Shown here piece after piece: positions 13,141-35,620 of a stretch of DNA of 64,000 nt; within the stretch, counting starts at the first letter, position 1, and each line of letters begins with the position of its first letter. This DNA is from Sphingomonas psychrotolerans (GTDB lineage: Bacteria; Pseudomonadota; Alphaproteobacteria; Sphingomonadales; Sphingomonadaceae), in NCBI RefSeq assembly GCF_002796605.1, contig NZ_CP024923.1, positions 4,719,501 to 4,783,500 on the forward strand. The letters run 5' to 3'. The notes below the pieces were generated by a model that was not told where the DNA came from, ran no database searches, and saw nothing but the letters and a program-made list of their open reading frames with translations. The position numbers and the translations under genes were made by a program.

Positions 13141-13543
13141 CGCGCGCGAAGATAGAGCGGCAAGCGCCCCTTTGCGAGCTGCCTCGTCCGTTTGCCTGTC
13201 TGGGTTGCGCACGCGTTTTGCGAGCCGTTGGCCGAGCGGCCATCGCGCCGTACGTCGTTCCATCGGGATGAGCCGCAGGTAATGTATCCAGCAAAGGCGG
13301 GTTTTTCTCGAGCCAATTTATGAAACGACTGGAGTCCAGAAAATATCTTTACCGGACTATATTGAATATTTCATGATAGAGCGAATCGAATCGTGTGAAG
13401 ATATGGCGATATATTTTTAACTAGACCTAAAGTCGATTTCAGGGCTGTAATTGTAATTAATTTGCAACAAAAAACTTTTGCCAAAATGGTTCTGCCGCCG
13501 TGTCCAACTAGCGAGGGTGCTGGTTCGGCGGGGATTTTGAGAG
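13141..13543. promoter_or_regulatory. Divergent AT-rich promoter region of the second LuxR gene
   Basis: About 400 bp between the leftward STN gene and the rightward LuxR gene. The part 13290-13500 is strongly AT-rich for this genome. It holds AATTGTAAT at 13449-13457 and TGCCAAAATG at 13479-13488, both matched ahead of the first LuxR gene with the gap enlarged from 10 to 21 bases. No gene is seen. Confidence 0.45.
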
Positions 13544-14347
13544 ATGTTTGCGAGCAGTGCCTTTGCACGCCACGTGAGCCCTGTTGCGAATGACCCGAGC
13601 ACGCCTGCGGACCGGGTGGGGCTGACCGATGCGGCGTCGCTCTCGTCGCTGGTCGGCGAATTGTCGCAATGCACGACCCCTGCAGCGTTGCGGCAATGGC
13701 TTGCCGAATATGCGCGGCAACGCGGCTTTCGGGGCGCGCGCTACCTGCATCTCGGTCATCTCCATCTTGGGCAGCGCGGACAGCACTGGAAGCTGCTGCG
13801 CTTTCTATCGACACACGAAGACCGCGCCGATCTGTGGCTGACCGACAAGGCCGGCGTCGAGGCAATGCTGGTCACCTTTTTGCCCTTCGCCTGGTCGAAT
13901 GGCGACGGCGAGGGGTTCACTGCAGCGCAGCGCGAATGGTATGTGTCGCAGCAGCTCCTCGACTGGCCGGCCGGAGTCACGGCACCGGTTCAGGATCACC
14001 CGGCCGGGCCTGCCTGCCTCATCCTGTTCGGCGGCACCGAGCAGGACGCGGTGCATCTCATCGATACGCAGATGCCATCGCTGGCGGTGCAGGCGCTCGC
14101 TTTCCATCTTCTCGCCAAGGCGATCCTGCCGGCCAGCAACGCGCTCGGACCGGCACTCTCTGACCGCGAGATCGCGTGCCTGCGGCTTGCCGCCCTCGGA
14201 GACACGCTGGCCGATGCCGCGGCCAAGTTGGGGGTGTCGGTCCGCACCGTCGAGCTTCATGTAGCTCGCGCGAGCAAAAAGCTGAGCGCCGCCAACAAGA
14301 TCCACGCAGTCGCCATCGCGGTCGGCGCCGGTCTGATCCAGGTCTGA
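13544..14347 (+). CDS. LuxR-type transcriptional regulator (autoinducer-domain solo)
   Basis: A 267-residue paralog of the regulator at 9663, with the same two-part layout. The N-terminal ligand-domain-like region includes ALRQWLAEYARQRGFRGARY, FLPFAWSN and APVQDHPAGPACLILFGG. The C-terminal LuxR helix-turn-helix is LSDREIACLRLAALGDTLAD followed by LGVSVRTVELHVARASKKLS. The motif GAGAG stands just before the ATG. The two-partner transporter gene starts one base after its stop, so the regulator is probably the first gene of the adhesin-secretion operon and is a natural candidate for controlling it. The ligand is unknown; no luxI homolog is in the window. Confidence 0.87.
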   Translation: MFASSAFARHVSPVANDPSTPADRVGLTDAASLSSLVGELSQCTTPAALRQWLAEYARQRGFRGARYLHLGHLHLGQRGQHWKLLRFLSTHEDRADLWLTDKAGVEAMLVTFLPFAWSNGDGEGFTAAQREWYVSQQLLDWPAGVTAPVQDHPAGPACLILFGGTEQDAVHLIDTQMPSLAVQALAFHLLAKAILPASNALGPALSDREIACLRLAALGDTLADAAAKLGVSVRTVELHVARASKKLSAANKIHAVAIAVGAGLIQV

Positions 14348-14348: not shown

Positions 14349-16088
14349 ATGCACGCGCTTTCCCCCTTGATGCCATCCGCCGCGATGATCGCCCTTGCGG
14401 CAGGAGCCGCCGGCGTGCCGATCGCGGCGCTGGCGCAGGAAACGATCCCGGCGCAGCAGGAACCTGCACCGGTCGAGGCCGGCAACGCTGCGGCGCGCGA
14501 GGCGCCGACCAGGTTCATGATCACGGCGATCGACGTGTCGGGCGTGACCAAGCTGAGCAGCGCCGAGATCGAGCGTCTCGTCTATCCCCATCTCGGTCCG
14601 GATCGTACCACCGATGACGTCACCGCCGCGCAGAAGGCGTTGCAACAGGCCTACGCCGCGAAGGGCTATGAGGCAGTCGAAGTCGAAATCCCGGTCCAGC
14701 CGAACGAGTTGTTCAGCCAAGGCATCGTCCAGCTCACCGTGCACGAAGCGCCGCTCGGGCGCGTGCAGGTCGTCGATGCCAAGCATCATTCTAGCGAGAT
14801 CGCCCGGACGCAGGTGCCATCGCTCGTCGAAGGGCAGCCGATTGACGTCGCGGCACTCCAGCGGGACATCGCGGCGGCCAATCGCTTTCCTGATCGCACG
14901 ATCAGCCCGCGGTTCAAGGCGGGCGCCACGCCGGGGACGGTCGATGTCGACCTCGAGGTCGAGGATAGCGCGCCGATCCACGCTAGCATCGAACTCAACA
15001 ACGACAGCAGCCCCAACACGCGGTCGCTGCGCCTGAGCGGCACGCTGCGCCACACCAATTTGTGGGGACAGGGGCATACGCTGTCGATCACCAGTTCGCT
15101 GACGCCGCAGGACATCGATCAGAGCGCGGTGCTCTCGGCCTCGTACAGCGCGCCGTTGATCGGAACCCCGTGGTCGTTCCTGTTCTACGGCTACAAATCG
15201 AACAGTAACGTCGCTGCGCTGGGCGGCACCAACGTGCTGGGCAACGGCTATCAGATCGGCGCGCGGGTCAGCTATCGGCTGCCCGGCGACAAGCTGTTTC
15301 AGCAGATCAGCTTCGGACCCGACGTCAAAGTGTTCGAAGAGAATATCTCGCTGAACGGCGCGGCGCTCCAGCCGACGCAGATCCGCTATCTGCCGCTGGT
15401 CGGCGAATATTCGATGGGCGGCAACGACGAGACGACGAGTTTCGGGCTCACCTTCGCCGCGACTGCGGGGCTCCGTGTCGTCAAGCACGACACCTGCTTC
15501 GAAAGTCCTTTCGACACGCCGCAACCGCCGCCCGGGATCATCACCTGTGAGTTCGGCAATGGCGATACCGGGGTGGTCGCGGACCAATTTACCGGGCGCG
15601 CGATCGATGCGAGCGAGAATTTCGTCCGTTTCAATCTCGACCTCAACTACACGCGCACCCTGATCGAGGACTTCCAGCTCGCGCTGCGCCTCTCCGGGCA
15701 ACTCGCCGATTCGAGCCTCGTCACCAACGAGCAATTCTCGATCGGCGGAATGTCGAGCGTGCGCGGCTATTATGTCTCGGAGGCGGTCGGCGATGACGGT
15801 TTCGTCTCCTCGATCGAGATGCGCACGCCGAGCCTTGCGCCATCCTTGCCGGGCTTCGTCGACGAGCTGCGGCTCTTTTCCTTTCTCGACGCCGGCTACG
15901 CGCGGATCCGCGCGCCGGCGGTGGGCCAGACCGACGAATTCCGCATCGCCGGCATCGGCGGCGGCTTCCGTCTGCAGGTTTTCAAGCTTCTCACCGGCGA
16001 GTTCGTGATCGGCGTGCCGCTGCGGGCCGGCCCGGCCACCGGGCGAGGGGAGCCGCGATACAGCTTCTCGCTCAAGGGCGAATTCTAA
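14349..16088 (+). CDS. Two-partner secretion transporter (ShlB/FhaC/HecB family)
   Basis: A 579-residue outer-membrane protein. A signal peptide is followed by POTRA domains (about residues 55-130: FMITAIDVSGVTKLSSAEIE ... YAAKGYEAVEVEIPVQPNE; then VQLTVHEAPLGRVQVV). The C-terminal 16-stranded TpsB barrel carries the conserved IGGMSSVRGYYVSEAVGDDG loop motif (VRGY) and ends in Phe (FSLKGEF), as outer-membrane barrels do. It should recognise the TPS domain of the adhesin at 21043 and thread it through the outer membrane. It immediately follows the LuxR gene and is followed by the ExbB/ExbD/TonB set. TPS transporters normally need no energy transducer, which makes this context unusual. Confidence 0.93.
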   Translation: MHALSPLMPSAAMIALAAGAAGVPIAALAQETIPAQQEPAPVEAGNAAAREAPTRFMITAIDVSGVTKLSSAEIERLVYPHLGPDRTTDDVTAAQKALQQAYAAKGYEAVEVEIPVQPNELFSQGIVQLTVHEAPLGRVQVVDAKHHSSEIARTQVPSLVEGQPIDVAALQRDIAAANRFPDRTISPRFKAGATPGTVDVDLEVEDSAPIHASIELNNDSSPNTRSLRLSGTLRHTNLWGQGHTLSITSSLTPQDIDQSAVLSASYSAPLIGTPWSFLFYGYKSNSNVAALGGTNVLGNGYQIGARVSYRLPGDKLFQQISFGPDVKVFEENISLNGAALQPTQIRYLPLVGEYSMGGNDETTSFGLTFAATAGLRVVKHDTCFESPFDTPQPPPGIITCEFGNGDTGVVADQFTGRAIDASENFVRFNLDLNYTRTLIEDFQLALRLSGQLADSSLVTNEQFSIGGMSSVRGYYVSEAVGDDGFVSSIEMRTPSLAPSLPGFVDELRLFSFLDAGYARIRAPAVGQTDEFRIAGIGGGFRLQVFKLLTGEFVIGVPLRAGPATGRGEPRYSFSLKGEF

Positions 16089-16113
16089 CCTGGACAGCAA
16101 TTGGGGATCGAAC

Positions 16114-17895
16114 GTGGGCCGAACATTTCTAGCATGGCTGATCGCCCTGCTCGCGATCAGCACTCCGGCCTTCGCGCAACCGGACGCCGGCTGGTGGAAC
16201 AAGGATTGGCCGTACCGGCGCATGGTGACGGTCGACACCTCGCCGACCGGCGGCAATCTGAGCGGCGCGATCGGCCGCACCGTGCTGCTGGTCCGGCTCC
16301 ACGACGGCAATTTCACCTTCGGCGACGCGCTCGAGAATGGCGCGGACCTCCGCGTCGTCGACAGCGACGGCAAGACCCCGCTGCCGTTCCACATCGAACG
16401 CTATGACGCAGCCAACAGCATCGCGACCTTGTGGGTGTCGGTGCCGGGCCTCAACGGCGGGGAGAGGCGTCAGCTCTGGCTCTATTTCGGCAACAAGAAC
16501 GCCCCGGCGGGAAGCGACATCGCGCGGACCTACGACCCCGACACGATCGCCGCCTGGCATTTCAGCGAGACCGGCGGGAAGCCCGCGGCCGATCTGACCG
16601 CCAACGGCAACAATGCGCAGAATGCCGTGCCGGCGATCGACGAGAATGGCGTGATCGCGCGCGCCGCACGTTTTCAGGGGCAGGGTGAGCTCGTCATCCC
16701 CGCGACCCCTTCGCTGGCCATGCCGGCAGGCGCGCCGCTGACCCTGACCGCCTGGGTGCGCGCCGATCAGCTGGCGGGCGAGCAGGCGCTCTTCGCGCGC
16801 GGACCGCTGGTCGTCGGACTGGCAAACGGTGCGCCCTTCGCGCTCGTCGGCACGCAGCGTATCCAGGCGGGCGCGGCGCTCAAGGCCGGCGAATGGGCGC
16901 ATCTTGGCTTCGTCGCCGACGGACAGAATGTGCGTCTCTACGTCAATGGCGTGGAGGCCGGGGCGGCTCCGGGCGCGCTCCCCGCGCTCGACGGTCCGAT
17001 CGCGCTCGGCGGTGCGGCGGGGCGACCGTTCGTCGGCGAGCTCGACGAGGTTCGCCTCGCCAAGACCGCGCGGCCCGCGGCGATGTTGCTCGCGAGCGCG
17101 CAGGCCGAAGGCCCGAACAACAAGCTCGTCGCGGTCGCCGGCACCGCCGAGCGGCAGAGCGCGGGCGGCGGCACGTTCGTCTACGTGCTCGGCAAGGTCG
17201 AGATGATCGACGCCTTCATCATCGGGCTGTGCATGGTGATCCTCGTGCTGGCGGTGGCGGTGATCGTGACGAAGGTCGCCTATATCAACCGGGCCGTCCG
17301 CGCGAACCGGGTGTTCCTCAAGCGCTTTCGGGCGCTCCACGAGCATCTCGTCAGCATGAAGCACGTCGAGGGCGTCGGTCCGCGCGAGCTCGACATGATC
17401 GGGCAGGCCCCGCTGGGCCGGCTCTACGAAACCGGGATTGAGGAGCTCGAGATTCGCCGCGAGACGCGCGGCCGTCGCCCGTTGTCGGGCGAGAGCGTCG
17501 AGGCGATGCGCGCCGCGGTCGACGCAGTGGTGGTCGAGGAGAATCAGAAACTCGACCGCTGGCTGGTGCTGCTTACCATCGCGATCTCGGGCGGGCCGTT
17601 CATCGGTCTGCTCGGCACCGTGCTGGGCGTGATGAACACCTTTGCCGGTGTCGCGCTGGCAGGCGACGTCAACGTCAACGCGATCGCCCCCGGCATCGCC
17701 GCGGCGCTGATGGCGACGATCGCCGGCCTCGCCTGCGCGATCCCGTCGCTGTTCGGGTACAATTATCTAAACAGCCGGATCTCGGCGCTCTCGGACGAGA
17801 TGCGCGTCTTCGTCGACCGGCTGATCACGCGCCTCGCCGAGATGCAGACCGAGGGCAGCCCTGCGCCGGCGGCTGCGCTCCAGGCGGCCGAATAG
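16114..17895 (+). CDS. DUF2341-LamG-ExbB/TolQ fusion protein
   Basis: A 593-residue protein with a signal peptide (FLAWLIALLAISTPAFAQ). It carries a DUF2341 domain (about residues 25-130: WWNKDWPYRRMVTVD, LWVSVPGLNGG, LWLYFGNKNAP) and a LamG/concanavalin-like domain (about 140-325: AAWHFSETGG, LTLTAWVRADQ, VRLYVNGVE, GELDEVRLAKTARP). The C-terminal MotA/TolQ/ExbB proton-channel domain has membrane segments near 367-390, 483-505 and 524-550, including GGPFIGLLGTVLGVMNTF and IAPGIAAALMATIAGLACAI. The GTG start follows GGGGA. The periplasmic lectin-like part fused to a proton-driven motor subunit suggests that proton flow is coupled to a substrate bound in the periplasm. The exbD-like gene follows after 22 bp. 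Confidence 0.9.
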   Translation: MGRTFLAWLIALLAISTPAFAQPDAGWWNKDWPYRRMVTVDTSPTGGNLSGAIGRTVLLVRLHDGNFTFGDALENGADLRVVDSDGKTPLPFHIERYDAANSIATLWVSVPGLNGGERRQLWLYFGNKNAPAGSDIARTYDPDTIAAWHFSETGGKPAADLTANGNNAQNAVPAIDENGVIARAARFQGQGELVIPATPSLAMPAGAPLTLTAWVRADQLAGEQALFARGPLVVGLANGAPFALVGTQRIQAGAALKAGEWAHLGFVADGQNVRLYVNGVEAGAAPGALPALDGPIALGGAAGRPFVGELDEVRLAKTARPAAMLLASAQAEGPNNKLVAVAGTAERQSAGGGTFVYVLGKVEMIDAFIIGLCMVILVLAVAVIVTKVAYINRAVRANRVFLKRFRALHEHLVSMKHVEGVGPRELDMIGQAPLGRLYETGIEELEIRRETRGRRPLSGESVEAMRAAVDAVVVEENQKLDRWLVLLTIAISGGPFIGLLGTVLGVMNTFAGVALAGDVNVNAIAPGIAAALMATIAGLACAIPSLFGYNYLNSRISALSDEMRVFVDRLITRLAEMQTEGSPAPAAALQAAE

Positions 17896-17917
17896 GCGCG
17901 GAAAGGGGAGACCAGTC

Positions 17918-18328
17918 ATGCAGATCAACAAGGGCCGCAAGGCATATGACGACATCAACATCACCCCGATGCTCGATCTCGCTTATGTTCTGCTCGTCAT
18001 CTTCATCCTGATGGCGACCGCCTCGGTGCAGGGGATCAAGGTCGACCTGCCCAAAGCGAGCGCGGCGCAGAGCCTCGTCCAGCCCAAGACGATCGCGATC
18101 ACCGTAACCAATGACGGACAGATCTTCATGGATGCCTTTCCGGTGACGCTCGCCGATCTCGAGACGCGGCTGCGCAGCGCCAAGGCGAGCAATCCCGACG
18201 TGCCGATCGTGCTCAAGGGCGACCAGACCGCGCAATATGGCAAGGTGACGCAGGTTCTGGACCTGTGCCGTCAGCTCGACCTCAACAAGGTGGGGCTCGT
18301 CACCGGCAAGCCCGCCAGCGCGTCCTGA
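17918..18328 (+). CDS. exbD: ExbD/TolR biopolymer transport protein
   Basis: A 136-residue protein with a short cytoplasmic N-terminus and one membrane segment (about residues 18-38) containing the functionally essential Asp (D20 in NITPMLDLAYVLLVIF). A periplasmic ExbD domain follows (KTIAITVTNDGQIF, IVLKGDQTAQYGKVTQVLDL). It forms the proton channel with the ExbB domain of the preceding protein. AGGGGAG lies about 8 bases before the ATG. It stands between the exbB-type fusion and a tonB-like gene, in one transcription unit. Confidence 0.92.
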   Translation: MQINKGRKAYDDINITPMLDLAYVLLVIFILMATASVQGIKVDLPKASAAQSLVQPKTIAITVTNDGQIFMDAFPVTLADLETRLRSAKASNPDVPIVLKGDQTAQYGKVTQVLDLCRQLDLNKVGLVTGKPASAS

Positions 18329-18346
18329 GATCGGCGAGACGCGCGC

Positions 18347-19078
18347 ATGACCACGATGCAGCCCCCGGGCTACGAGGCCTTCGAGGACCGATCGGCGGTC
18401 CGCGAAGCGCTGCCCTATGGCGTGGCGGTGCTGTTGCTCGGGCTGCTCGCCTGGTTCGTCTACAGCCAGCTCACCGCAGTGAGCGGGGTGCGGGTCACCG
18501 AGGATTCTAAGTCAGTGGTCGACGTGGTTCCGCTGCCGCCGCCACCGCCCCCGCCGCCGCCGGAACTCAAGGAAAAACCCCCCGAGCCGACCGAGCAGCC
18601 GCAGCCCTCACCGGCCGAGGCGCAAAAAGCGCAGCAGCCGCAGCCCGAGGCGGCACCGGTCTCGATCAATGCCCCCGCCGAGTCGGGGAGCGACGCTTTC
18701 GGCCTGCGCGCGGGTTCGGGCGGCGGGATCGGCGCGCCGTCGAGCGGCGGGACCTGCCTCGGGAGCAATTGCGGCGCCAAGGCGGGCGGCGGCGGCATGG
18801 GGCTGGGCATTTATCGCAGCTACCTGAGCACCGCGCTGCAGCGACGCGTGTCGGGCGACGACCGGCTCAATCGGCTCGTCTTCTCGGCCGATTTGCTGCT
18901 GACGGTCGACGCCCAGGGACAGGTGACCGGCGCGCGGCTGGTCGAGGCGCGCGGTCGCGACGACCAGGCGACGTTGCAGCGGCTGGTGGAGGTGCTGCGC
19001 GGGGCGCGGCTCGATCCGCCGCCGCCAGCAATGTCCTTTCCATACAAGATCACGGTTCGAGGGCGGCGCGCGCTCTGA
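18347..19078 (+). CDS. TonB-like protein of the adhesin cluster
   Basis: A 243-residue protein with one N-terminal membrane segment (about residues 23-44), a proline run (PLPPPPPPPPPELKEKPPEP) typical of the TonB periplasm-spanning rod, and a Gly-rich linker with a Cys pair (TCLGSNCG). A TonB-like C-terminal domain follows (about 155-240: YLSTALQRRVSGDDRLNRLV, LLTVDAQGQVTGARLVEARG). The Cys pair could form a disulfide, which is unusual for TonB. It completes an ExbB-ExbD-TonB set inside a two-partner secretion operon, with no TonB-dependent receptor gene in the window. Confidence 0.85.
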   Translation: MTTMQPPGYEAFEDRSAVREALPYGVAVLLLGLLAWFVYSQLTAVSGVRVTEDSKSVVDVVPLPPPPPPPPPELKEKPPEPTEQPQPSPAEAQKAQQPQPEAAPVSINAPAESGSDAFGLRAGSGGGIGAPSSGGTCLGSNCGAKAGGGGMGLGIYRSYLSTALQRRVSGDDRLNRLVFSADLLLTVDAQGQVTGARLVEARGRDDQATLQRLVEVLRGARLDPPPPAMSFPYKITVRGRRAL

Positions 19079-19106
19079 GCGACGCCGCGAACAAAAGGGA
19101 ATGGGA

Positions 19107-20924
19107 ATGTCAGGGCATCGAAACTTTGGCCGACTGATGCGCAATTGGCGATGCGGCGTAGCCGTCGTCGCCGTGTTGGCAGCGGCGCCCGCGCTGGCGC
19201 AGGAAGCGCCGCGGTCGGACAGCGCGATGGTGAACCTCGTCCGGCTGCTGACCGAGCAGGGGGTGCTGACGCCCGAAAAGGGCAAGGAATTGATGGATCA
19301 GGCGCAAGCCGAGGCCGCACAGGCGCGCGCCGAGCTGGCGCAGGCCGCGCCGGCTCCGAACCAGCAGGCCGCCGCGGAACTGCCCCCGCCGCCGCCCGGC
19401 ACCGTGCGCGTCCCCTATGTTCCCGAGACGGTCCGCACGCAGATCAAGAACGAGTTGCGCACCGAAGTGATGGCGCAGGCGAGGACCGAAGGCTGGGCGG
19501 CGCCCGACAAGGCCGCCCCCGACTGGGTCGACAATATCCGCATCCACGGCGACTTCCGCTTCCGTTCGGCCTCGGCCTTCTACGCAGCGGACAATTCGCC
19601 CGATTATATCGACGTGCCCGAATTCAACGAGACGGGGCCGATCGACCTGACCCGGCAGCTCGCGCCCCGGCTCAACACGACGCGCGACAAGCGCAACAAC
19701 ATGCAGATCCGCGCGCGGATCGGACTTGAGGCGACGATCGCCAACCGGTTCCAGCTCGGCTTCCAGCTCGCGACCGGCGACGATCCCGGGCCGATCTCGA
19801 CCAATGCGACGCTCACCGGCGGCTTCCGCAAGCGCGACCTCTGGCTCCAGAACGCCTATGTGAAGGGCGAGCTGGTGCCCGGGCTGACCGCGATGCTCGG
19901 CCGGTTCGACAATCCGTTCCGCACCACCGATCTGATGTTCGATCCCGATCTCGCGCTCGACGGGCTCTATGGCGAGGCCAATTTCGCCAAATTGTTCGAC
20001 CAGGGCGACGACTTCACCGTGGCGGTGCGCGGCGGCGCGTTCCCGATCATGTTCGAGGATTCGGATTACCCTTCGACTTCGTCGGACAAGCGCAACTTCC
20101 GCGACCGCTATCTGTTCAGCGGCCAGCTCGAACTCGCCAGGAAGTTCGATAACGGCGTCGAGGCGCACCTTGCAGGCGCCTATCACAACTTCACCTATCT
20201 GCGCGGCCATGTCTCGGCACCGTGCGACATCTATTCGGTCGAGAATGTCGAATGCTCGACCGACGCGCTGCGGCCGCTCTACGCCACCAAGGGCAACACG
20301 CTGATGTTCCTGCGGCGGTTCGACACGACCGCCAATCCCGATCCGAACGATCCGCGCCAGCCGCAATATCTGGGCCTCAAATTCGCCTATCGCGTGCTCG
20401 ACGTGAACGGATCGGTGAGCGTGCCGATCTCCGATGGCGTGATCGCGAGGCTGGGCGGCAATTACCTCTACAATTTCGGCTTCGACCGGAAGAATATCTG
20501 CGCTGAAGGCCCCGACGGCGCGCCGCTGAACAATGTCGTGCTGTCGGATCCAGTCAATGATCCGCTGCAGGGCGCCTGCGACGTGACCGGCCCGGCGCGC
20601 TTCGTCGGCGGCAATCAGGGCTATGGCGGCTATCTCTCGATCGGCGATCCCAACCTGTTCAGCGTCAATCCGCGCCGCGCGTACAAAGGCGCCTGGGCGA
20701 TCAATCTCGCGTATAAATATCTCGAGAGCGACGCCGTCCCGGACAGCTTCACCGATTCAGATTTCCATCTCGGCGGCACCAATGCGCAAGGCTATGTCAT
20801 CGGCGGCGCCTGGTCGCCGTTCGACGGCATTGCGATCGGTGCGCGCTGGTTGAGCGCCAACGAGATCGTCGATGCGCCGCTGGCGATCGATGTGCTCCAC
20901 GTCGATCTCGGCGTGGCCTTCTGA
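19107..20924 (+). CDS. Putative outer-membrane porin
   Basis: About 605 residues with a signal peptide (cleavage after APALAQ). An Ala/Gln/Glu-rich helical segment at about residues 55-85 could form a coiled coil, and is followed by a Pro-rich linker. A long beta-barrel begins at IRIHGDFRFRSASAFY and contains paired aromatic strands such as IGLEATIANRFQLGFQLATG and YVKGELVPGLTAMLGRFDNP. The chain ends in Phe (VDLGVAF), as expected for Bam-assembled barrels. It belongs to the putative-porin type found beside FHA systems. The ATG at 19107 is better placed behind AAAAGGGA than the ATG at 19101. The coiled-coil plus barrel layout could anchor the barrel to peptidoglycan or partner proteins (inference). 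Confidence 0.8.
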   Translation: MSGHRNFGRLMRNWRCGVAVVAVLAAAPALAQEAPRSDSAMVNLVRLLTEQGVLTPEKGKELMDQAQAEAAQARAELAQAAPAPNQQAAAELPPPPPGTVRVPYVPETVRTQIKNELRTEVMAQARTEGWAAPDKAAPDWVDNIRIHGDFRFRSASAFYAADNSPDYIDVPEFNETGPIDLTRQLAPRLNTTRDKRNNMQIRARIGLEATIANRFQLGFQLATGDDPGPISTNATLTGGFRKRDLWLQNAYVKGELVPGLTAMLGRFDNPFRTTDLMFDPDLALDGLYGEANFAKLFDQGDDFTVAVRGGAFPIMFEDSDYPSTSSDKRNFRDRYLFSGQLELARKFDNGVEAHLAGAYHNFTYLRGHVSAPCDIYSVENVECSTDALRPLYATKGNTLMFLRRFDTTANPDPNDPRQPQYLGLKFAYRVLDVNGSVSVPISDGVIARLGGNYLYNFGFDRKNICAEGPDGAPLNNVVLSDPVNDPLQGACDVTGPARFVGGNQGYGGYLSIGDPNLFSVNPRRAYKGAWAINLAYKYLESDAVPDSFTDSDFHLGGTNAQGYVIGGAWSPFDGIAIGARWLSANEIVDAPLAIDVLHVDLGVAF

Positions 20925-20956
20925 TGACCTGCCGTCCCGCCGCGCCGCGCCGATGC

Positions 20957-20974
20957 GATCCGGCCTGCCGGATC
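20957..20974 (+). other. Hairpin between porin and giant adhesin genes
   Basis: GATCCGGC at 20957-20964 pairs perfectly with GCCGGATC at 20967-20974. It lies in the 118-bp gap between the porin and the adhesin. No T-run follows, so it may attenuate or stabilise the message rather than terminate it. Weak evidence. Confidence 0.3.
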
Positions 20975-21042
20975 CGGCCAGCCCCGGGCGGGCGGGCCAT
21001 CCTCTCCCTGTTGCTCAACGATTCTCGGGCTGGAGTCCTGCA

Positions 21043-27000: not shown

Positions 27001-30000
27001 GCGATCCCGGGCGCGTTGCGCCTCGTCGAGAATACGGGAAGCGGCGCGCCGCTGCCGGGGCAGAGCGCGACGATGCTCGACGGCAGCGTCGTCGTCGGCG
27101 GCACCTATGGCTATGCCGACACCGGCATCGCGGAATCGACGCGCCACGCGTTCACCGTGCAAAGCCGTGACAGCTTCCTCAAATATTCGAACATCGTCAC
27201 GACGAGCGGCTCCAACACGCTGGTAAAGAATGCCTCCGACAAGGGCGTGGCCCGGCCGCGCCTGCCGCTCGATGCCGCGCGGGTGATCCTCAGCCCGCTC
27301 ACCGAGCTTCGTATCGCCGGAGTGTTCGATACGCGCGCGGCCGAGGGCGGGCAGGGCGGCCAGTTCGACCTGCTCGGCACGAACGTCGTCATCGCCGCGG
27401 ACGACAGCCAGCAGACTCCCGGCGCGCTGACGGTCGGCGCCTCGACTCTGGCGAGCCTCGGCGCGACCAGCCTGCTAATTGGCGGTCAGCGCAGCGACGG
27501 TGCCGATGGCACCACCGCGATCCATCCCAGCGCCGGGTCGATCCTGATCAAAAGCGGCGTGACGCTAGACACCCCCGAGCTGCTGCTCGCGGTCGGCGGC
27601 ACCGGTTCGGCGCTGACGATCGAAGACGGCGTGACGCTCAAGGCGAGCGGCGCGCTCGGGACACAGCCGGCGACCGGTTATACCGCATCGACCGCGGGCT
27701 CGCTGCTACGGCTAGCCAATGGCGCTGAGCGCCTCGTCTCGCGCTCCGCCACCGGCGGGTCGTCGATCAATATCGGCGCGGCAAGCATCAGCGGCACGTC
27801 ACTGGCGCTGGACACCAGCGGAACCTTCGCGGTCGCCGATCAGGCGGCGATCGCCGCGGATCGGATCGCGATCAGCGGCAGCGCGCTTCAGTTCGATTCG
27901 AGCGCGCAGGCGGCGGGGCAACCCGGCATCATCGGCGCGGCGCTCGAGGCGAAGCTCGCCGCGGCGCGACAGCTTACCGTGCGTTCGCCGGGCGCCATCC
28001 GCTTCTCGGCCGGGACCCATCGCTTCAACGGCCTTGTCCTCGATACCGCGACGCTCGCCGCCGTCGCCGATACCGCGGCCGACGGCGCAGTGACGATCGA
28101 TGCGGGCGATGTCCGCCTGCTCAATGCGGGTAATGGCGCGGACGGCTGCCGCGTGGCGGGCTTCTGCGGCGCGGCGAGCGCGCTGACGCTCAACGCCGCG
28201 ACGCTCAGCTTCGGCGCCAACGCCGTGCGGGCTTCGGGCTTCGCCGACTCGGTGACGCTCGCCGCGACCGGCGGCATCTATGTCGAGGGCAAGGGCTCCT
28301 TCTCGGCGGGCAACGCCGCGCTCGCGTTGCGTGCGCCCTTCCTCGCCGATCGCGCACTGTCCGCCGATCCGCGCGCGCAGAAGGTGCGGCCCGAATACAG
28401 TTTCCTCACCAACGCCGGCTTCACGCTATCCGCGCCGGCGGGCGCGTCCGCATCGACGCCGAGCGGCAATGCCGCGCCGGGCGCCAGCATCAGCATCGGC
28501 ACGAAGGACGCTCCGGTGCTTTCGGCGAAGATCGTCGGCAGCCTGATCCGCGCATCGTCCGGCATCATCGATGTCGAGGCGAAGGGCGACATCGCCTTGA
28601 CGGGTGCGACACTCTCGACGCCGGGCTATGAAAAGACCTTCGGAGACAGTGTCGACGCAGTGACCGTGTCGGCGGGCGGCGGGACGATCAACCTGCTGTC
28701 GAAGAACGGCAATCTGACCGTCGATGCGGCGAGTACCCTGATCGTCGATAGCGGCACCGGATCGGCCGGAGCGCTGAACCTGCTCGCCGGCAATGGCGCG
28801 ATCACGCTCGCCGCGACGCTCAACCCGGGGGTGCAGGGCAATCGCCAGAGTTCACTGGTCTTTGATTCGGGCCGGTCCGGCTTCGATCTGAGCGGGTTCG
28901 TGACTCGCTACGGCCGGTTGTTCGGCGGCGACGTGGCGGTGCGGAGCGGTGCGGGTGACCTCGCGCTCGCGGCGGGTCAGACGCTGAAGGCGAAAAATGT
29001 CAGCCTCACCGCCGATGGCGGGCGCATCACCGTCGCGGGGACGATCGACACCTCGGGCGTGAACATTGCGGGAATGACCGCCGACCAGGCGCGCAACGCC
29101 GCAGTCGACGGCGGCGACATCGCGCTTTGGGGCCGTGGCGGCGTGACGCTCACTGCCACCGCGAAGCTCGACACGCACACCAGCGGCCATGCTGACACCG
29201 ACAGCCGGGCCGCCTCGGCCGGAGAGGTGACGATCGGGATCGAAGCGGCGGACGCGGCGATCGATATCGCGAACGGCGCGATCATCGATGTCGGTGCGCG
29301 CCGCACCCAGGCGGCGCTGGCCGCGGGCGAGACCGGCGCACGGCTGATCCCGCAAGTGATCACCGATCCGGTCAGCGGCAATCCGGTCACCGTCTATCGC
29401 TATGCCGCGGCGGACACCGGCGGGACCGTTCATCTGCGCGCGCCGGTGCTCGGTACGGGCGAGGACAAGGTCGCGGTCAGCCTGCGCGGTTCTATCCTGG
29501 GCGCCGATACCGTTCAGCTCGAGGCGTTCAAGCGCTACGATCTCGATGTGCTGGCGAGCAGCGGCCTCTATTCGGGGATCACTCGCGATGCCGACGGGAC
29601 CTTGCTGCTCAACATGGCGGCGAGCAGCGCCGCCGGCGGCAAGTTCAATCCGTTCACCGAGAATTTCGCGCTGGCCGATGGCGGATCGTCGGTGGTCCGT
29701 TTCATCCAGGATTTCGACGTCTCCACCATGGACGGCAGCAGCCTTGACGGAGTCCGCCTGCGCCCCGGAGTCGAGCTTGCTTCGGACGGCAGCATCAAGA
29801 CGACGACCCAGTGGAATCTAGCCGCGGCGACCTTCTCGCCCGAACAGATCCAGGCGGCCGTGAACGCCGGGGTACTCGAAGTGATCCCCGAACTGAGCAC
29901 CGGCGGGCAGACGCAATATCGGCTGGTGCCCGGTCAGGAAGGCACGCTGCTCGATCGCTTCGCCACCTTCCTCTATCGCACGGGCGGCTCCGCGCGCGGC

Positions 30001-33000
30001 GAGGCGCCGGTCATGACGCTGCGCGCAGGCGGGAACCTGACCGTCAACCGCAGCATCAGCGACGGCTTCTTCAGTTTCCGCGACAAATCGAACCCCGCCT
30101 ATATCAACTGGCAGCTCGGCGGCGGCGACCGCAGCTATTCGCCGGCGCTCCAATTCTCGTGCGGCGGCGCCACCGGCTCGTGCGCCAACATCCCGAGCTA
30201 TGGCTCGGGCAATCCGGGCGTGCCGCGAACGCTGACCATCTCGCTGAGCGCGCAGGCGGCGCAGGGCGACTTCAACGGCAATCCCTTCGTCAATTCGCCG
30301 CTCGCGCTGGCGGGCAACGGCGCGGCAGGCGGGGGCGAGGCGGGGGACTCGCTGGGCTTTGCCGAGCTCTTCCCGCTGCTCGACGGCAATGTCGCGATGC
30401 ATTCGTCCGATCTGCGGCTCGTCGCGGGCGCAAACAGCGTGCTGTCGGCGAACCCGCTCCACGTCGATCGCGCGCTCGACGCGGACATGATCGTGGCGGG
30501 CGAATATAGCTACAGGCTCACCGCCACCGGGACGGTCAGCTTCGACGATCCGCTGCAGTTCAGGCTCATCAACTCGGCCGCGGCCAACCCGATCGACTTC
30601 AACATCGGCGACACGCTCAACCTGAGCGACTCGACCGCGCAGCTCGATCAGCTGCGCGGCGATGCCTATACCCAGCTGAACTGGGGCAATTCGGCAGGCC
30701 TGGGCGTGGACGCGCGCACGGCGGCGCTGCTTTATTTCGCGGGCAAGGGCTATAGCTTCGTCGGATCGCCGACCCAGCCTACGGGCATCTCGGCACCGCT
30801 CTCGGAAATCATCGGATTCCTGCAATCGTTCGAGCCGACCTATCTGGCCGGGCTGGCGAACGGACGCACGGGATATACCGCCAACCGTACCCCGGCGATC
30901 ACCAGCTATGGCAGCGCCGACCAGGCCCATGTCCGCTCCTATGTGCGGACCGGCGACGGTTCGATCCAGCTCGCGGCATCGCGCGACGTGGATCTGCGCG
31001 GCGCTGCGAACCTCGCCGATCGAAATGCGGTCACCTATCGCCAGCAGAACGGCACCGCGACGGCCGGCCCCAATTACGGCAACAGCCCGAGCGCCTCGGT
31101 CGAGTTCTCGGCGGCGGCGGTCTACACCGCTGGCGTGCGGGTGGCGAAAGCCGATGTCAGCGCGCGGATCATCGGCGGCGGATTGGTTACGATCCGTCCC
31201 GACAGCCCCTATCTCGATGCGGCGTCCGAGAAGGTAGACTTCATCCCGACGCCCAAGGGGCTGTCCGATACCCAGCCGCTGCTGGCTTATGGCGGCGGCG
31301 ATCTCTCGCTCATGGCGGGCAGGGACGTGCTCGGCAATCGCGACGTCTGGAGCGAACGCTGGCTCGATGCCGGCCCGACCGGCGGCCAGATCAGCCAGCG
31401 GTGGCGCACCGGCGGGGTCGGGATCGACACCGAGATCGGCATTGCGCCGCGCTACTTCACCTCGGGAGTCGGCGCGCTCGCTGGCGGCGACGTGACGATC
31501 GACGCGGGGCGCGATGTTGTCGAACTCATGGTCGCGCTCACCAACGGCGTTACGACAGCGTCGACTGCGCCGGATGCAGTGATGCTCGCGTTCGGCAACG
31601 GCAATCTCGCACTGACCGCCGGCCGTGACATCCTCGCGGGCAAATTCGACATGGCGTCGGGGGCTGCCGCGATCCACGCCGGGCGCGACATCGGCGCCTT
31701 CGGGCTCGAGCCGGTCATGGCTGGAATAGGTGAGACGGTTCCGCCCCAATATGCGCGGATCCGCCTCGCCGATGCCGTGGTCGACGTCTCGGCCAAGGGA
31801 TCAGTGAGCTTGGCCAGCGTATCGGCGCTCGGGGTGGACAGCACCGCGCCGCAATCGGCCAATTCGGCCGGCTTCTTCAGCCCGGCCGCCGCGATCGGCA
31901 TTTCGGCCAATGAGAAGGTTGAGATAGCGCCGCCCTTGTTGACCGCAAGTTGGGATTACGGCCTGCAGCCGCGAGAGCTCCTTGCGACTGGCAGCATTCC
32001 CCGGTTTGTCCAGCTTCTCCCACCGACCGTGTCGCTCACCTCGCTGACGGGCAGCGTGGCCTTGCCCGCCGAGCCGCAGCAATTGCTCTATCCTTCGCCG
32101 ATCGGCCAGTTGCGCCTGTTCAGCGATGGCGACATCAAGGATCTGTCGATCGCGATGAGCGACGTCGACCCGGGACTGCTCGCCGGCGCCTTCGTCGCCA
32201 ATGTCGGCTTCTTCTATCAATTCCCCTATGTCGTCACGGATACGACCGACGCGCAGCTTCGCGCCGCGCACAACCGGCGCATCACCCATGCGGGCGATCC
32301 CGAGCCGGTGCGGATCTACAGCAACGGCGACATCCTGAATTCGGCGATCTTCCTGCCCAAACAGGCGCGGATCACCGCGGCCGGCGACATCGTCGACATG
32401 TTCTTCAACGGGCAGAATCTGGCCCGGGGCGACGTGACCCGCATCCGGGCGGGCGGGGACATTTTCGGGACGATGGCGTCGACCTCGGATCCGCTGCCTT
32501 ATGTGCGATCGAGCAATTTCATCCTCGGCGGGCCGGGCAGTTTCATCCTCGAGGCCGGCGGCGACATCGGGCCGTTCGCGAGCTCCGCCGATATCACTGC
32601 AGGCGGACAGACCTACAGCTTCGCCGGTGGTGTCCGCACGATCGGCAACGAATATAACCCTTGGCTGGCTGACCAGGGCGCGGATTTGCAGCTCCGCTTC
32701 GGCATGGCGGCCGGTGCCGACTACGCGGCGCTGCGCGAGACCTATCTCAACCCGGCGAATTTCGCGAAACTCGACGGCGACCTGTTCGCGCAGGTCACCG
32801 ATGCGTTCGGCAACAAGCGGCCCGATCGCAGCAAGCCGATCTATGCGCCGCTCCTCGCCGAGTGGTTGCGCGACAATGCGCCCGAGGCCTTTGCCGCGAT
32901 CTTCGGCGGCGCCGGCGTCGCGAGCGGCGCTGGGCTCGCGGAAGCGGCTTATGGCCACGCAGGCGCGCTTTACGATGCTTTCGCCGCGATCGACTCGCTG

Positions 33001-33936
33001 CACCAGCAGGATTTCCTGATCAACCGCCTCTATTTCAACGAGGTCGCCGAGGTCGGCAATCGGAGCGGGCCGTCGTTCCAGCAATATGTCCGCGGCTATC
33101 GCGGGATCCAGACGCTGTTCCCGGCGAGCCTCGGCTATACCGATAATCTTGCGCCCTATTCGCTCGATCCTTCGACCGTCTCCGCGGATCATCCGCTCGG
33201 CGAGCCGGTGCGCAACACCGTCGGCGGCCAGCCGCAACGGGCGGAGCGCGTGGTCACCGGCGGCGTCGACCTCCGCCTCGCGACGATCCAGACCGCGCGC
33301 GGCGGGGACGTCACGATCCTGGGGCCCGGCGGCGATGTCATCGCGGGCTCGGTAGTCCGTACGGCGGACCAGGCGGTGCGCCGGGCGACGGCGTTTCAGG
33401 TGAACGCGGGAACGGTTCGATCGCGCCTCGAGCTCGGCTGGGTCACCGGGAGCGAGGGCGCAAGATTCGCCTCCGTCCCCTTGGGCTATGAAGGCCTGCT
33501 GACGTTGCGCGGCGGCGAGATCCACGCGTTCACCGACGGCGACTTCATCCTCAACCAGAGCCGCGCTTTCACCCAGCAGGGCGGCGACATCGTCATGTGG
33601 TCGTCCAACGGCGACCTCAACGCCGGTCAGGGGCCGAAGAGCGCCTCCAATTTCCCGCCGATCACCTTGCGGTTCGACGAGAACGGACTTTCGGACGTCA
33701 ACAGCGCGGGCAGCGTCTCGGGTGCGGGCATCGGCACGTTCAGGCGGACGCCCGACGATCTTGCCTCCGACGTGATTCTCATCGCGCCGGTGGCGAAGTC
33801 GACGCTGGCGACGCCGGGGTTCGCGCATCGGGCAATGTCGTGGTCGCCGCTGCGCGCGTCGCCAACGCCGACAATTTCAAGGCTGCGGGCGACATCACCG
33901 GCGTGCCGAGCCAGAGCGGCATCAATGTTGCGGTGA
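21043..33936 (+). CDS. Giant two-partner-secretion adhesin (filamentous haemagglutinin family), frameshifted near its 3' end
   Basis: It encodes 4,297 residues as read. A signal peptide (RRHLLLLGASVATLACSLGS, cleavage near AGAQ) leads to a TPS/haemagglutinin-activity domain at about residues 140-410 (SWNKFNVGANTTLQFNQKE, VVLNRAGIIFGKNSQVNTRS). Some 3,600 residues of Gly/Ala/Asp-rich beta-helix follow. A DUF3739-type C-terminal module comes last (GGDIVMWSSNGDLNAGQGPK). The ATG at 21043 has GGAG about 7 bases upstream. After APV (33787-33792) the frame departs from the family: it reads an Arg/Ser-rich tail and stops at 33936, while the expected GEVDAGDAGVRASGN continues in the next frame to 34121. 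Secreted by the TpsB protein at 14349; likely a surface adhesin. Restoring one base gives about 4,359 residues. Confidence 0.92.
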   Translation: MTIRRVPSSGRARRHLLLLGASVATLACSLGSTPAGAQTMGAMLRQQAGAPRPQAQQPSAAPLRSPTMQGALARQRSTQSRIAQIRTYASALRQAVTRTGASDGLSPDGLDPTEAIREAIAATRAGDTARANQLLVSAGAANDTTGLKTWEGAGLPSQSVVDGRTVVMIDQTKERALLSWNKFNVGANTTLQFNQKENGVARPGWVAVNRVTNATDPSLILGNLKADGTVVVLNRAGIIFGKNSQVNTRSLLASTLELGNAVILTQGVGTRVASIRDRNSYYFENGLFAPANRTADRTSESDGAALLVSGIAEQNGGDVRFVSAVEGGIVVDSGAQLSMATGGFLILAAPEIRSAGRLSAVEGQVSLQAGRAVSFIESTGAATGADPYVRGYKLNSFFYGIGSNPQLPRDPLPGDGRIIVDGIIVSRRGYLSLGTSPYGSIESHGLLSTTTSVSRNGKISITGGNILLAGAADPGKASGIEMIADDNGETIPQGSASEPATFKASQLEIGTQVQVPNVPVGSLLSTNFTMGQNALIYAPGANVTVGATVGAAALGAVSGLAFGRIEIASGATIDVSGYKDVQLAASRNSIEITPVKRNELRDTPNYREVALDGNFTLNGATLYVDPRLSGVREDGVAWVGSPLIEAGSLAGQIGVTAQEFMTRGGSVSLLTSDLSPRDNLSASTAPSIHIARDATIDFSGGWVNYAAGTVRTSRLVTDDGRIVDIGKADPNDHYVGVVDGFIEVQPRFGVLRTYLNASGQGLRFDAAYDEGRDAGRLTISAPAVAVDGSFYGNSFAGARQIAAGVRPSLASTLAGDGRRFQRSRYELPTAGSVSFKTLGDMLVYHGERGAAESNRAELLLSDTMLSGAGLSALSLEATGSVTFAGGNPFTLQAADALRITGASKLALAPGGALTVLAGRTIRFDGTVTANSGSIDATTRTNTVRDGLPGPNGSAFRTGLYGTGLGDDLARLYAADPGALNPYDVVVTGTLSTAGLWVNDYAEQGAPRGGAFSDGGSIRLTAAPNFLSAIGTSLDTATQAVDLSGSIRVSGTLNVMSGGYVTATGSLLLDGMGGDVSLVAATRYASTSLTDSGRLTAGDPAYSNIPLGGEGSQSVDFTPLPVGTPFGLAVLPTLVPDPRTTVDIGGASILGFGFGGGGTFALVAPDISFGSDNHAGATHIGFDFFQKTGFGTLDLSSYRSKIVDDVFTNGRAGKSAFLETTRFEVRGGETLDLTQWLLPAVLTADQSLALRTLGTGADLSGQSFLAPSRMDAAWDRKAAHLVLGGLTEFDVLAGGTITGAAEASLTVAKLYNGGTIALRGGTISQRNDLPNDLVVGGLGVRAADLGGNGIAEAFGGGTDALGRFDENARNAAGVTDPASAGRIITNAELVSRDGADRLIYFLGRLSAAQGILLDNGSVTDLSGVALLNPRAPFQPGGAQIRVGRVLDGGSILLRAGEIASRTTRFGVNTSVLDSNSFVRADGARLDISGTSAFLDQPTGLGNFAPYLEWSAAGTISALGGGSLGTTPIDAHGGVAQAQGGTLEWLRPTLGANANGGADYLYAGTVAASGFDSLIARNALTLDGDFSLSLRKSLMVLSQDPTEGAPIRPDADVYISATQGTRAAVAASYIRFASRLGDPLFEIHPAVAGDAQVTFAAGGQGIDLVGAIAMDRSIASVALRSPGDVRLIGVNDRGAGEFAYNGQFVVNGDLLIDARRTYATTGTGNLQALLEGRPEAFSRPYTLAALGDHSITFGNSYLDASAPPPLSAGTHLRILAARIEQNGYLAAPLGLLELGSNTATTVRSASILPTRSVTLGAGSVTTVSGAGLKVPYGTTTDLIEYYFPTIATPITRLPTGQLNLAAAAIVEQAGARIDGRGGGDVFAYEFQSGVGGSRDVLDRINRDPYSSNHFDPVTGRGYQYADRRQVFALVPVSQAGKIAAYDPLYSADYGSAGSVDLYGANAGMTVKLDGAPGVPAGEYLLVPAKYALAIPGALRLVENTGSGAPLPGQSATMLDGSVVVGGTYGYADTGIAESTRHAFTVQSRDSFLKYSNIVTTSGSNTLVKNASDKGVARPRLPLDAARVILSPLTELRIAGVFDTRAAEGGQGGQFDLLGTNVVIAADDSQQTPGALTVGASTLASLGATSLLIGGQRSDGADGTTAIHPSAGSILIKSGVTLDTPELLLAVGGTGSALTIEDGVTLKASGALGTQPATGYTASTAGSLLRLANGAERLVSRSATGGSSINIGAASISGTSLALDTSGTFAVADQAAIAADRIAISGSALQFDSSAQAAGQPGIIGAALEAKLAAARQLTVRSPGAIRFSAGTHRFNGLVLDTATLAAVADTAADGAVTIDAGDVRLLNAGNGADGCRVAGFCGAASALTLNAATLSFGANAVRASGFADSVTLAATGGIYVEGKGSFSAGNAALALRAPFLADRALSADPRAQKVRPEYSFLTNAGFTLSAPAGASASTPSGNAAPGASISIGTKDAPVLSAKIVGSLIRASSGIIDVEAKGDIALTGATLSTPGYEKTFGDSVDAVTVSAGGGTINLLSKNGNLTVDAASTLIVDSGTGSAGALNLLAGNGAITLAATLNPGVQGNRQSSLVFDSGRSGFDLSGFVTRYGRLFGGDVAVRSGAGDLALAAGQTLKAKNVSLTADGGRITVAGTIDTSGVNIAGMTADQARNAAVDGGDIALWGRGGVTLTATAKLDTHTSGHADTDSRAASAGEVTIGIEAADAAIDIANGAIIDVGARRTQAALAAGETGARLIPQVITDPVSGNPVTVYRYAAADTGGTVHLRAPVLGTGEDKVAVSLRGSILGADTVQLEAFKRYDLDVLASSGLYSGITRDADGTLLLNMAASSAAGGKFNPFTENFALADGGSSVVRFIQDFDVSTMDGSSLDGVRLRPGVELASDGSIKTTTQWNLAAATFSPEQIQAAVNAGVLEVIPELSTGGQTQYRLVPGQEGTLLDRFATFLYRTGGSARGEAPVMTLRAGGNLTVNRSISDGFFSFRDKSNPAYINWQLGGGDRSYSPALQFSCGGATGSCANIPSYGSGNPGVPRTLTISLSAQAAQGDFNGNPFVNSPLALAGNGAAGGGEAGDSLGFAELFPLLDGNVAMHSSDLRLVAGANSVLSANPLHVDRALDADMIVAGEYSYRLTATGTVSFDDPLQFRLINSAAANPIDFNIGDTLNLSDSTAQLDQLRGDAYTQLNWGNSAGLGVDARTAALLYFAGKGYSFVGSPTQPTGISAPLSEIIGFLQSFEPTYLAGLANGRTGYTANRTPAITSYGSADQAHVRSYVRTGDGSIQLAASRDVDLRGAANLADRNAVTYRQQNGTATAGPNYGNSPSASVEFSAAAVYTAGVRVAKADVSARIIGGGLVTIRPDSPYLDAASEKVDFIPTPKGLSDTQPLLAYGGGDLSLMAGRDVLGNRDVWSERWLDAGPTGGQISQRWRTGGVGIDTEIGIAPRYFTSGVGALAGGDVTIDAGRDVVELMVALTNGVTTASTAPDAVMLAFGNGNLALTAGRDILAGKFDMASGAAAIHAGRDIGAFGLEPVMAGIGETVPPQYARIRLADAVVDVSAKGSVSLASVSALGVDSTAPQSANSAGFFSPAAAIGISANEKVEIAPPLLTASWDYGLQPRELLATGSIPRFVQLLPPTVSLTSLTGSVALPAEPQQLLYPSPIGQLRLFSDGDIKDLSIAMSDVDPGLLAGAFVANVGFFYQFPYVVTDTTDAQLRAAHNRRITHAGDPEPVRIYSNGDILNSAIFLPKQARITAAGDIVDMFFNGQNLARGDVTRIRAGGDIFGTMASTSDPLPYVRSSNFILGGPGSFILEAGGDIGPFASSADITAGGQTYSFAGGVRTIGNEYNPWLADQGADLQLRFGMAAGADYAALRETYLNPANFAKLDGDLFAQVTDAFGNKRPDRSKPIYAPLLAEWLRDNAPEAFAAIFGGAGVASGAGLAEAAYGHAGALYDAFAAIDSLHQQDFLINRLYFNEVAEVGNRSGPSFQQYVRGYRGIQTLFPASLGYTDNLAPYSLDPSTVSADHPLGEPVRNTVGGQPQRAERVVTGGVDLRLATIQTARGGDVTILGPGGDVIAGSVVRTADQAVRRATAFQVNAGTVRSRLELGWVTGSEGARFASVPLGYEGLLTLRGGEIHAFTDGDFILNQSRAFTQQGGDIVMWSSNGDLNAGQGPKSASNFPPITLRFDENGLSDVNSAGSVSGAGIGTFRRTPDDLASDVILIAPVAKSTLATPGFAHRAMSWSPLRASPTPTISRLRATSPACRARAASMLR

Positions 33937-34121
33937 CTCCCAACGGCGCCAACGAGGCACAGGCACAGCTCCGCGAAGTGACGCGGGCGGCGCAGCCCCC
34001 GGCCGACCGCCGCTCGATCATCACCGTCGACGTGCTGGGGCCGGTCGGCGACGGCCGCTGCGAGGATCGCAACCGGAGCGACGACCCGGACTGCGCGCCC
34101 GATCGCGGCAATCCGCAGTGA
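33792..34121 (+). pseudogene. Displaced C-terminal coding segment of the giant adhesin
   Basis: In the frame shifted relative to the main adhesin frame, the DNA encodes GEVDAGDAGVRASGNVVVAA, then AARVANADNFKAAGDITGVP and a charged tail ending DPDCAPDRGNPQ before TGA at 34119-34121. This matches position for position the end of the paralog at 1-2886 (GVIDAGEAGIRVSGNVNLAA ... NAANIKVQGD). A single missing G in GTGGC at 33790-33794 explains the break, and adding one base makes the total length divisible by three. It is either a true frameshift mutation or a base-calling error. Confidence 0.85.
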
Positions 34122-35614: not shown

Positions 35615-35620
35615 TGGCTT

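Follow-up and report, generated by a model that had tools for sequence, protein, structure and literature searches.

Type V translocation has been described as proceeding without an energy source, and two-partner secretion (TPS) was reported to transport its cargo in vitro without one (PMC5422565, in the sections available). A related gene set is known from Pseudomonas aeruginosa, where tpsA, tpsB, exbBD2 and PA0696 belong, together with VreA, to the PUMA3 regulon and where this association was noted for several genera (Llamas 2009, PMC2729926, as far as that text is accessible); the same accessible text speculates that the C-terminal domain of VreA meets an outer-membrane partner, and a later study (2020; PMC7035377, in the parts available) still regarded exbB2-exbD2-tonB4 as uncharacterised. 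Here, we analysed a window of 64,000 nt from the genome of Sphingomonas psychrotolerans (NZ_CP024923.1, 4,719,501–4,783,500; all coordinates below are positions within this window), which encodes on one strand a TpsB transporter, a DUF2341-LamG-ExbB fusion, ExbD, a TonB-like protein, a Porin_5 porin and a giant TpsA adhesin ending in a DUF3739 domain. The P. aeruginosa locus (pdtA-phdA-pdtB-exbB2-exbD2-tonB4-PA0696 in the accessible accounts) has the order TpsB-ExbB-ExbD-TonB-porin in common with it, whereas in S. psychrotolerans tpsA follows the porin gene, a LuxR gene stands at the head of the operon and the genes for the sigma factor and FecR are found some 5 kb upstream. The likeness to strain PAO1 was drawn from published gene order, while the sequence comparison covered other Pseudomonas loci; no Hxc, LapA or PhdA genes were found among the scanned genes of the window, a scan which did not cover its whole length.

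The association within this gene set is real and non-random, and the coupling of the motor genes to the adhesin is well supported by genomics. Two samples were surveyed, one of 299 Pseudomonadota genomes and one of 199 genomes from the family to which the window belongs; as related genomes are not independent draws, counts are reported and no probability is attached to them. Among the matches listed, the fusion was present in nine of the 299 genomes, as were DUF3739 and the full-length Porin_5, and the nine genomes were identical in all three cases (G000, G019, G094, G130, G155, G200, G255, G268, and G284, from six family groups). A TPS domain of any kind occurs in 105 genomes, these nine included, which leaves 96 TPS genomes without the fusion. 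Also among the matches listed, the best E-value of the fusion per genome was 6e-55 at the ninth genome and 3e-25 at the next one, where the ExbB part alone was matched (the fusion was counted as a contig-edge fragment in G284 and as two pieces in G200). Nine of the 12 fusions in these genomes stand in an uninterrupted TpsB-ExbB-ExbD-TonB-porin order; in G019 a TpsA is placed between TpsB and ExbB, and in G284 the contig begins within ExbB. In the family sample, a match to the DUF3739 region was obtained in 14 genomes and a strong DUF2341-LamG match in 12, all of them within the 14 (G346, G468, and G469, whose matches were weak, with E-values between 1e-6 and 1e-9, were not taken as positives). 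The DUF3739 region lies in short open frames in G302 and G452 (819 and 260 residues), as well as in G305, which has the fusion (241 residues); the frames of G302 (L224, L225) and G452 look like TpsA decay without the motor, but that of G305 is short in the presence of the fusion.

The same linkage was found in a set of named loci, i.e., the best 80 loci of the fusion retrieved by one scan, which belong to Alpha-, Beta-, and Gammaproteobacteria and to records titled Verrucomicrobia, Akkermansiaceae, and Anaeromyxobacter, with Sphingomonas providing the closest ones (fusion identities of 86% and 77%). ExbD is adjacent to the fusion in 79 of them (in L119 as part of a longer, overlapping frame), TonB follows in 77 (the other three end within 650 bases), and the porin follows in 74, with five of the others near contig ends and the porin of L118 on the opposite strand. 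A TpsB on the same strand was recognised in 60 loci, a TpsA in 49, and at least one of the two in 78. In L118 and L133 no TPS gene was in view, yet each of these genomes has a DUF3739 gene elsewhere. At 7–13 kb in L118, the fusion, ExbD, and TonB lie apart from TPS genes, and the porin and a thioredoxin-like gene (named by reading) occupy the other strand. Chance or selfish clustering of genes that share no function would be compatible with one genome taken alone (G268, where the genes are found in at least two places), but we regard this explanation as negligible in view of the identical nine genomes from six family groups, the conserved order, and the unlinked DUF3739 genes in the genomes of L118 and L133. 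The survey of DUF2341-ExbB homologs that had been suggested in the first-pass annotation of this stretch hence returned strong linkage to TpsB/TpsA, and the random association that had been named there as speaking against a functional link is not what the 299 genomes display.

In the window, the genes are co-oriented on the plus strand, with gaps of 25, 22, 18, 22, and about 118 bases from tpsB to tpsA (the last one with the tpsA start at 21043), and both open reading frames (ORFs) and domain scans confirmed this arrangement as first annotated. The strong terminator proposed at the end of the cluster was not recovered: between positions 32900 and 38000 the scan detected just one site, a weak one at 36009, and the end of tpsA, from which the next open frame is 41 bases away, had none. 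The annotation was right that a TonB-dependent receptor is absent, since none of approximately 105 receptor barrel matches in the genome falls within the window, and uptake through such a receptor was set aside for this reason. The genome harbours three copies of the module, with three fusions, three DUF3739 TpsA, and three Porin_5 arranged in three sets: besides the one described here (copy I), copy II lies directly upstream, the C-terminal part of its TpsA occupying positions 1..2886 (+) and ending in the motif NVRLLGFG, and copy III is located at 1.30–1.31 Mb. Recurrent neighbours of the named loci are a coiled-coil protein behind the porin (31/80), a PpiC-like isomerase (24/80), and a YbjN-like protein (15/80), all three named by eye from a comparison of their sequences with the published list of PA0697-PA0699, and OmpH/Skp-like genes are found behind tpsA in copies II and III; such chaperone-like neighbours agree with a role in making the adhesin. 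Directly 3′ of copy II tpsA (2883–4341), a SapC-like gene accompanies the OmpH/Skp-like one.

The TpsB transporter (14349..16088, +) has POTRA_2 and ShlB domains above cut-off, and its alignment profile matches the structures of CdiB and FhaC. A motor encoded next to it could act on TpsB itself, so that the proton-motive force would drive TpsA across the outer membrane, which is the explanation nearest to that of the first annotation. In 57 of the 80 named loci TpsB is the gene immediately before the fusion, tpsA takes that place in several others, and the cargo is long (3525–5111 residues in uncut frames). We nevertheless consider an action on TpsB unlikely, as no conserved segment was seen across 70 rows in the N-terminus ahead of POTRA, the protein is an ordinary transporter of the ShlB/FhaC/CdiB type, and the in vitro transport cited above (PMC5422565, sections available) was reported without an energy source.

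The motor part consists of the DUF2341-LamG-ExbB/TolQ fusion (16114..17895, +), a predicted proton channel with a lectin-like domain, and ExbD/TolR (17918..18328, +). ExbB Thr502, ExbB Thr535, and ExbD Asp20 were each present in 92 of 92 rows (12 survey rows and the 80 named loci, at least one genome seemingly being present twice, as G094 and L134). The DUF2341-LamG domain should be periplasmic; DUF2341 on ExbB-like proteins is described in the available text of PMC12505986 as a domain of unknown function. The TonB-like protein (18347..19078, +) comprises an N-terminal hydrophobic segment, a proline-rich stretch, and a TonB/TolA-type C-terminal domain. As a single sequence it gave no Pfam match and a TIGR01352 score below cut-off, while its alignment profile retrieved HasB (1.1e-4), followed more weakly by TolA and TonB, amid unrelated proline-rich matches; judged from this profile, it does carry a TonB-type C-terminal domain. 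A similarity to GltJ was set aside as an effect of composition, given that the match is located in the N-terminal proline-rich part. A housekeeping Ton system was likewise set aside, since the genome has four further ExbD genes elsewhere, to which the three module ExbD come as extras.

AglRQS and GldLM are thought to drag adhesins along the cell, and the ExbBD-TonB module could by analogy serve as a motor of surface movement. The ExbB part is closer to TolQ than to ExbB in profile comparison, and TolQ and AglR are grouped in one structural class in the accessible part of PMC12505986; no gliding genes, however, were recognised by eye among the 22 most frequent neighbour clusters, and with the GltJ match confined to the proline-rich N-terminus we find a motility function very improbable.

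The porin (19101..20924, +) is made of an N-terminal coiled coil, a loose linker with the segment VRVPYVPE, a helix, and, in the AlphaFold model (mean predicted local distance difference test score of 84), a 16-strand barrel without a plug domain. Pfam assigned Porin_5 alone and no SLH domain. The best solved structural match of the model is OmpM1, at 12% sequence identity, and the porin profile gave no match against Protein Data Bank sequences up to an E-value of 1. A phosphate-selective porin was considered and set aside, the model matching OmpM1 and general porins best. V104, Y106, P108, and V111 are nearly invariant across 57 porins, and of the 85 porin rows spanning this site, most show a recognisable form of the segment. 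Because this near-invariant V-x-V-x-Y-V-P segment precedes the barrel, the porin may be a partner of TonB, as the first-pass annotation had proposed. Along these lines, the TonB-like protein would act on the porin through VRVPYVPE, and the porin would open either for TpsA biogenesis or for the uptake of a substance captured by TpsA, in the manner of HxuA/HxuC. The modelled position of the segment, in the linker between the coiled coil and helix 109–130, would suit such a contact, and the full-length Porin_5 shares its nine genomes with the fusion and DUF3739. On the other hand, the barrel is modelled as that of an ordinary, plug-free porin, and the PpiC-like, OmpH/Skp-like, and coiled-coil neighbours point to biogenesis rather than uptake. 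In addition, three DUF3739 TpsA accompany a single fusion in G200 and two in G284; the motor therefore goes with TpsB and the porin, and as TpsA copies outnumber porins in both genomes, porin and cargo are not paired one-to-one. Overall, we think it rather doubtful that the porin is what the motor acts upon.

The giant TpsA is open from position 20872, within the porin gene, and probably starts at 21043, before a signal-like segment. Its TPS domain scored 61.6 bits with PF05860 (cut-off 33.5; profile positions 19–116 of 252). The tpsA frame is broken near 33.8 kb, inside DUF3739: the main frame (20872..33936, +) holds the TPS domain and the first part of DUF3739 (positions 1–70), and the continuation in another frame (33597..34121, +; overlap 33597–33936) holds positions 35–109 of the domain, the linker, and the C-terminal motif SIITVDVLG. 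In the other two DUF3739 genes of the genome the domain lies within one frame, and the break could be either an assembly error or real. Module TpsA proteins have a common end, with DUF3739 followed by a variable linker and a short motif near PSIxTVEVLGFG, which begins 13–131 residues from the C-terminus and which, on sequence grounds, is strand-like and conserved among them. It may resemble the TonB box of receptors. In the AlphaFold model of the copy II TpsA end, the tail that follows DUF3739 and bears the motif is of low confidence; in the same model (window 1207–2886), a helical stretch at about residues 204–311 interrupts the strand-rich part before DUF3739.

For scoring the motif, 37 non-redundant module tails (7 of 44 were removed as near-duplicates by a crude end-anchored identity) were compared with 36 control tails by means of a leave-one-out scoring matrix, from which only the scored tail was removed, so that its relatives remained. 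Module frames with weak C-terminal matches or shorter than 250 residues were excluded. Control tails were drawn from TpsA frames of module-free genomes, plus one non-DUF3739 TpsA of the S. psychrotolerans genome (L171), by taking the longest frame per stretch, the TPS domain being not confirmed individually; of 40 control loci, 4 were dropped for want of a stop codon within the stretch. An iterative scan seeded from tails already seen set the positions of the motif, and the result is a description with controls rather than a blind discovery. With these settings, 32 of the 37 module tails outscored all 36 controls, and 28 exceeded the best internal window of the module TpsA proteins (n = 310; maximum 15.6, 95% below 5.4).

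Divergent from the operon, a VreA-like sensor (12436..13263, −) combines an STN domain (PF07660, 49.1 bits) with a TonB-type C-terminal domain, which reached 17 bits with PF13103 (cut-off 22) and 51 bits with a model built from the C-terminal domains of module TonB proteins. This model was built without VreA-like proteins (row L072 was dropped, as its best TonB match was a VreA-like protein); 11 VreA-like proteins near module genes scored 35–80 bits with it, the module TonB, which belongs to the training set, scored 69 bits, and the one ordinary TonB tested (7208–7900) 17.5 bits. VreA and the module TonB hence share a C-terminal domain subfamily at the level of sequence. Full-length VreA-like matches were obtained in 7 of 10 module genomes (12 proteins) and in none of 26 module-free genomes. 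Copies I and II each have a nearby VreA-like gene; in copy III, TpsA itself carries a fused STN domain instead. Fusions of this type, with the STN domain behind the tail motif, were found in the TpsA of three genomes, 45 (copy III), 43 (G389), and 46 (G302) residues after the motif; the module of G389 is complete, the frames upstream of it read as sigma- and FecR-like in translation, and a VreA-like gene is absent. Counted per genome, 13 of the 16 TpsA in the 10 module genomes have a sensor counterpart, either a VreA-like gene or an STN domain of the fused type.

STN domains act in the periplasm with FecR-type proteins, as in FecA and FpvA, and the tail of an STN-fused TpsA should therefore stay there. 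The replacement of VreA by an STN-TpsA fusion suggests that the TpsA tail is the target of VreA, and since the module TonB has a C-terminal domain of the same kind, it may bind this tail as well. The remaining components of such a signalling route have candidates in the window, namely an extracytoplasmic function (ECF) sigma factor (7897..8499, +) as a putative VreI counterpart and a FecR-type anti-sigma factor (8503..9543, +) as a putative VreR counterpart.

The reading that we favour, with confidence a little short of even, is a motor-coupled two-partner secretion in which TonB and VreA both grip the periplasmic tail of TpsA. TpsB would export the giant TpsA, whose C-terminus would stay behind in the periplasm as an anchor and be gripped there by the module TonB. 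Powered by the proton-motive force, ExbB-ExbD would then pull, hold, or release the adhesin and in this way set its surface retention, tension, or release, with the porin as part of the same outer-membrane machine. A VreA-type sensor, owing to its C-terminal domain of the same kind beside an STN signalling domain, could read the same tail and report the state of the adhesin through FecR and the ECF sigma factor. The target of TonB and the use to which its energy is put, including the proton-motive-force-driven step in export, folding, surface extension or release that the first-pass annotation suggested, are the more conjectural parts of this scheme, as are the binding of the tail by TonB and VreA and its periplasmic position after export; at least as much evidence points to the TpsA tail as to the porin as the client of TonB. 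A further-reaching version, which we hold to be somewhat less probable, is that the giant adhesin would be both a TonB client and a signal transducer, its tail serving as a TonB box pulled by its own motor while a sensor or fused STN domain conveys its state to gene expression. If true, this would be a TonB-dependent transducer built from a secreted fibre and not from an outer-membrane receptor.

Several observations weigh against the proposed coupling or against parts of it. Regarding the linkage, three of the 299 genomes have weak, partial Porin_5 matches and no fusion, and G302 and G452 match the DUF3739 region but not DUF2341. In G268 the ExbB-ExbD-TonB genes are apart from the porin and TpsA, which are on another contig, a separation that contig ends do not explain, and no TpsB was seen in the stretches fetched from this genome. 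As to the tail, 5 of the 37 module tails do not rise above the scores of the controls, and module TpsA proteins contain some internal windows with scores of up to 15.6, which exceeds the scores of 9 of the 37 tails. Concerning the sensor, 5 of the 12 full-length VreA-like matches had been in the query alignment, and no VreA-like gene was found for the TpsA of G268, that of G019, and one of the two in G155 (3/16 TpsA). In the accessible text of PMC7035377 VreA is dispensable for the activation of sigma-VreI, and according to that of PMC2729926 an insertion in the P. aeruginosa tonB homologue PA0695 had no effect in zebrafish, nor did insertions in tpsA or tpsB. The motor, too, departs from the canonical one: the glutamate of the ExbB/TolQ motif PGIAEAL is Ala in 89, Gly in 2, and Ser in 1 of the 92 rows, and because it is replaced in all of them, the motor output of the module ExbB-ExbD is not certain. 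A Sphingobium ExbB without this glutamate is described in the available part of PMC8599685, where its loss had no effect on growth and its authors doubt an ExbB role. Finally, the near-invariant segment ahead of the porin barrel could itself be the client of TonB.

The surroundings of the cluster in the window include further genes. A LuxR-type (GerE) regulator (13544..14347, +) stops one base ahead of the tpsB start codon and is probably the first gene of the tpsB transcript; a weak LuxR-like match is likewise located upstream of tpsB in G155_C5. Between copies II and I, genes for a TonB, the ECF sigma factor, FecR, and an autoinducer-binding LuxR stand in a row (7208–10487), possibly a further signalling unit. 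Also upstream, a minus-strand protein with Calx-beta, Ig-like, and RTX repeats (4747–6783) contains three direct repeats of 348 bases (5654–6692), and downstream of the cluster a Hint-domain protein and a TPR-sulfotransferase follow on the same strand (34163–37507). A unit of 235 bases is repeated twice with 100% identity at 59016–59488, which may reflect a recent duplication or an assembly artefact.

The arrangement itself has been in print for P. aeruginosa since 2009, and the TpsA tail motif, the domain subfamily shared by VreA and the module TonB, and the STN-TpsA fusions are new; the published P. aeruginosa accounts, in the parts available, contain neither the C-terminal motif nor the STN fusions nor co-occurrence counts. 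A literature search found no publication on DUF3739 (it covered mostly open-access literature) and no paper tying the Ton module of such loci to the TPS mechanism (subscription papers and preprints were largely outside of it); of the titles listed, those on the P. aeruginosa regulon alone were relevant to the function of these Ton genes. Type Vb secretion is described as energy-free (PMC5422565, sections available), yet a subclass of it goes with a proton-driven motor of its own, which accompanies DUF3739 in 9/9 genomes of the phylum sample (among the matches listed) and 12/14 of the family sample. This makes the question of energy in the display of giant adhesins testable in a defined operon, and it suggests what the orphan TolA/TonB domain of VreA might bind and what exbB2-exbD2-tonB4 might do. 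More broadly, such clusters are widespread, and in them the export of a giant adhesin is joined by a TonB-type motor and a porin and in many cases by a signalling sensor as well.

Compared with known systems, the locus shares with the classical two-partner secretion of type Vb (FhaB/FhaC, CdiA/CdiB) the POTRA and ShlB domains of TpsB and the N-terminal TPS domain of TpsA, and it adds an ExbBD-TonB motor, a porin, the DUF3739 end, and the C-terminal strand motif. With TonB-ExbB-ExbD and Tol-Pal it has in common the conserved Thr and Asp residues and the TonB/TolA-type C-terminal domain, whereas its ExbB carries DUF2341-LamG and lacks the PGIAEAL glutamate, and its window has no TonB-dependent receptor. 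The porin resembles attachment porins of the OmpM1 type in its 16-strand barrel and N-terminal coiled coil, without their SLH domain. The likeness to PUMA3 (VreA-VreI-VreR, in the accessible accounts) lies in the VreA-type sensor with STN and TolA/TonB domains, the ECF sigma factor, and the FecR-type regulator; loci of the PUMA3-pdt type are further characterised by ECF sigma factor control during phosphate starvation. In HxuCBA of Haemophilus influenzae, too, a TPS pair is coupled to an outer-membrane step that depends on TonB (PMC5422565, as far as accessible); there, HxuC is a TonB-dependent transporter, while the outer-membrane partner in the module is Porin_5, plug-free in the model. We would class the locus as a variant of two-partner secretion in its own right.

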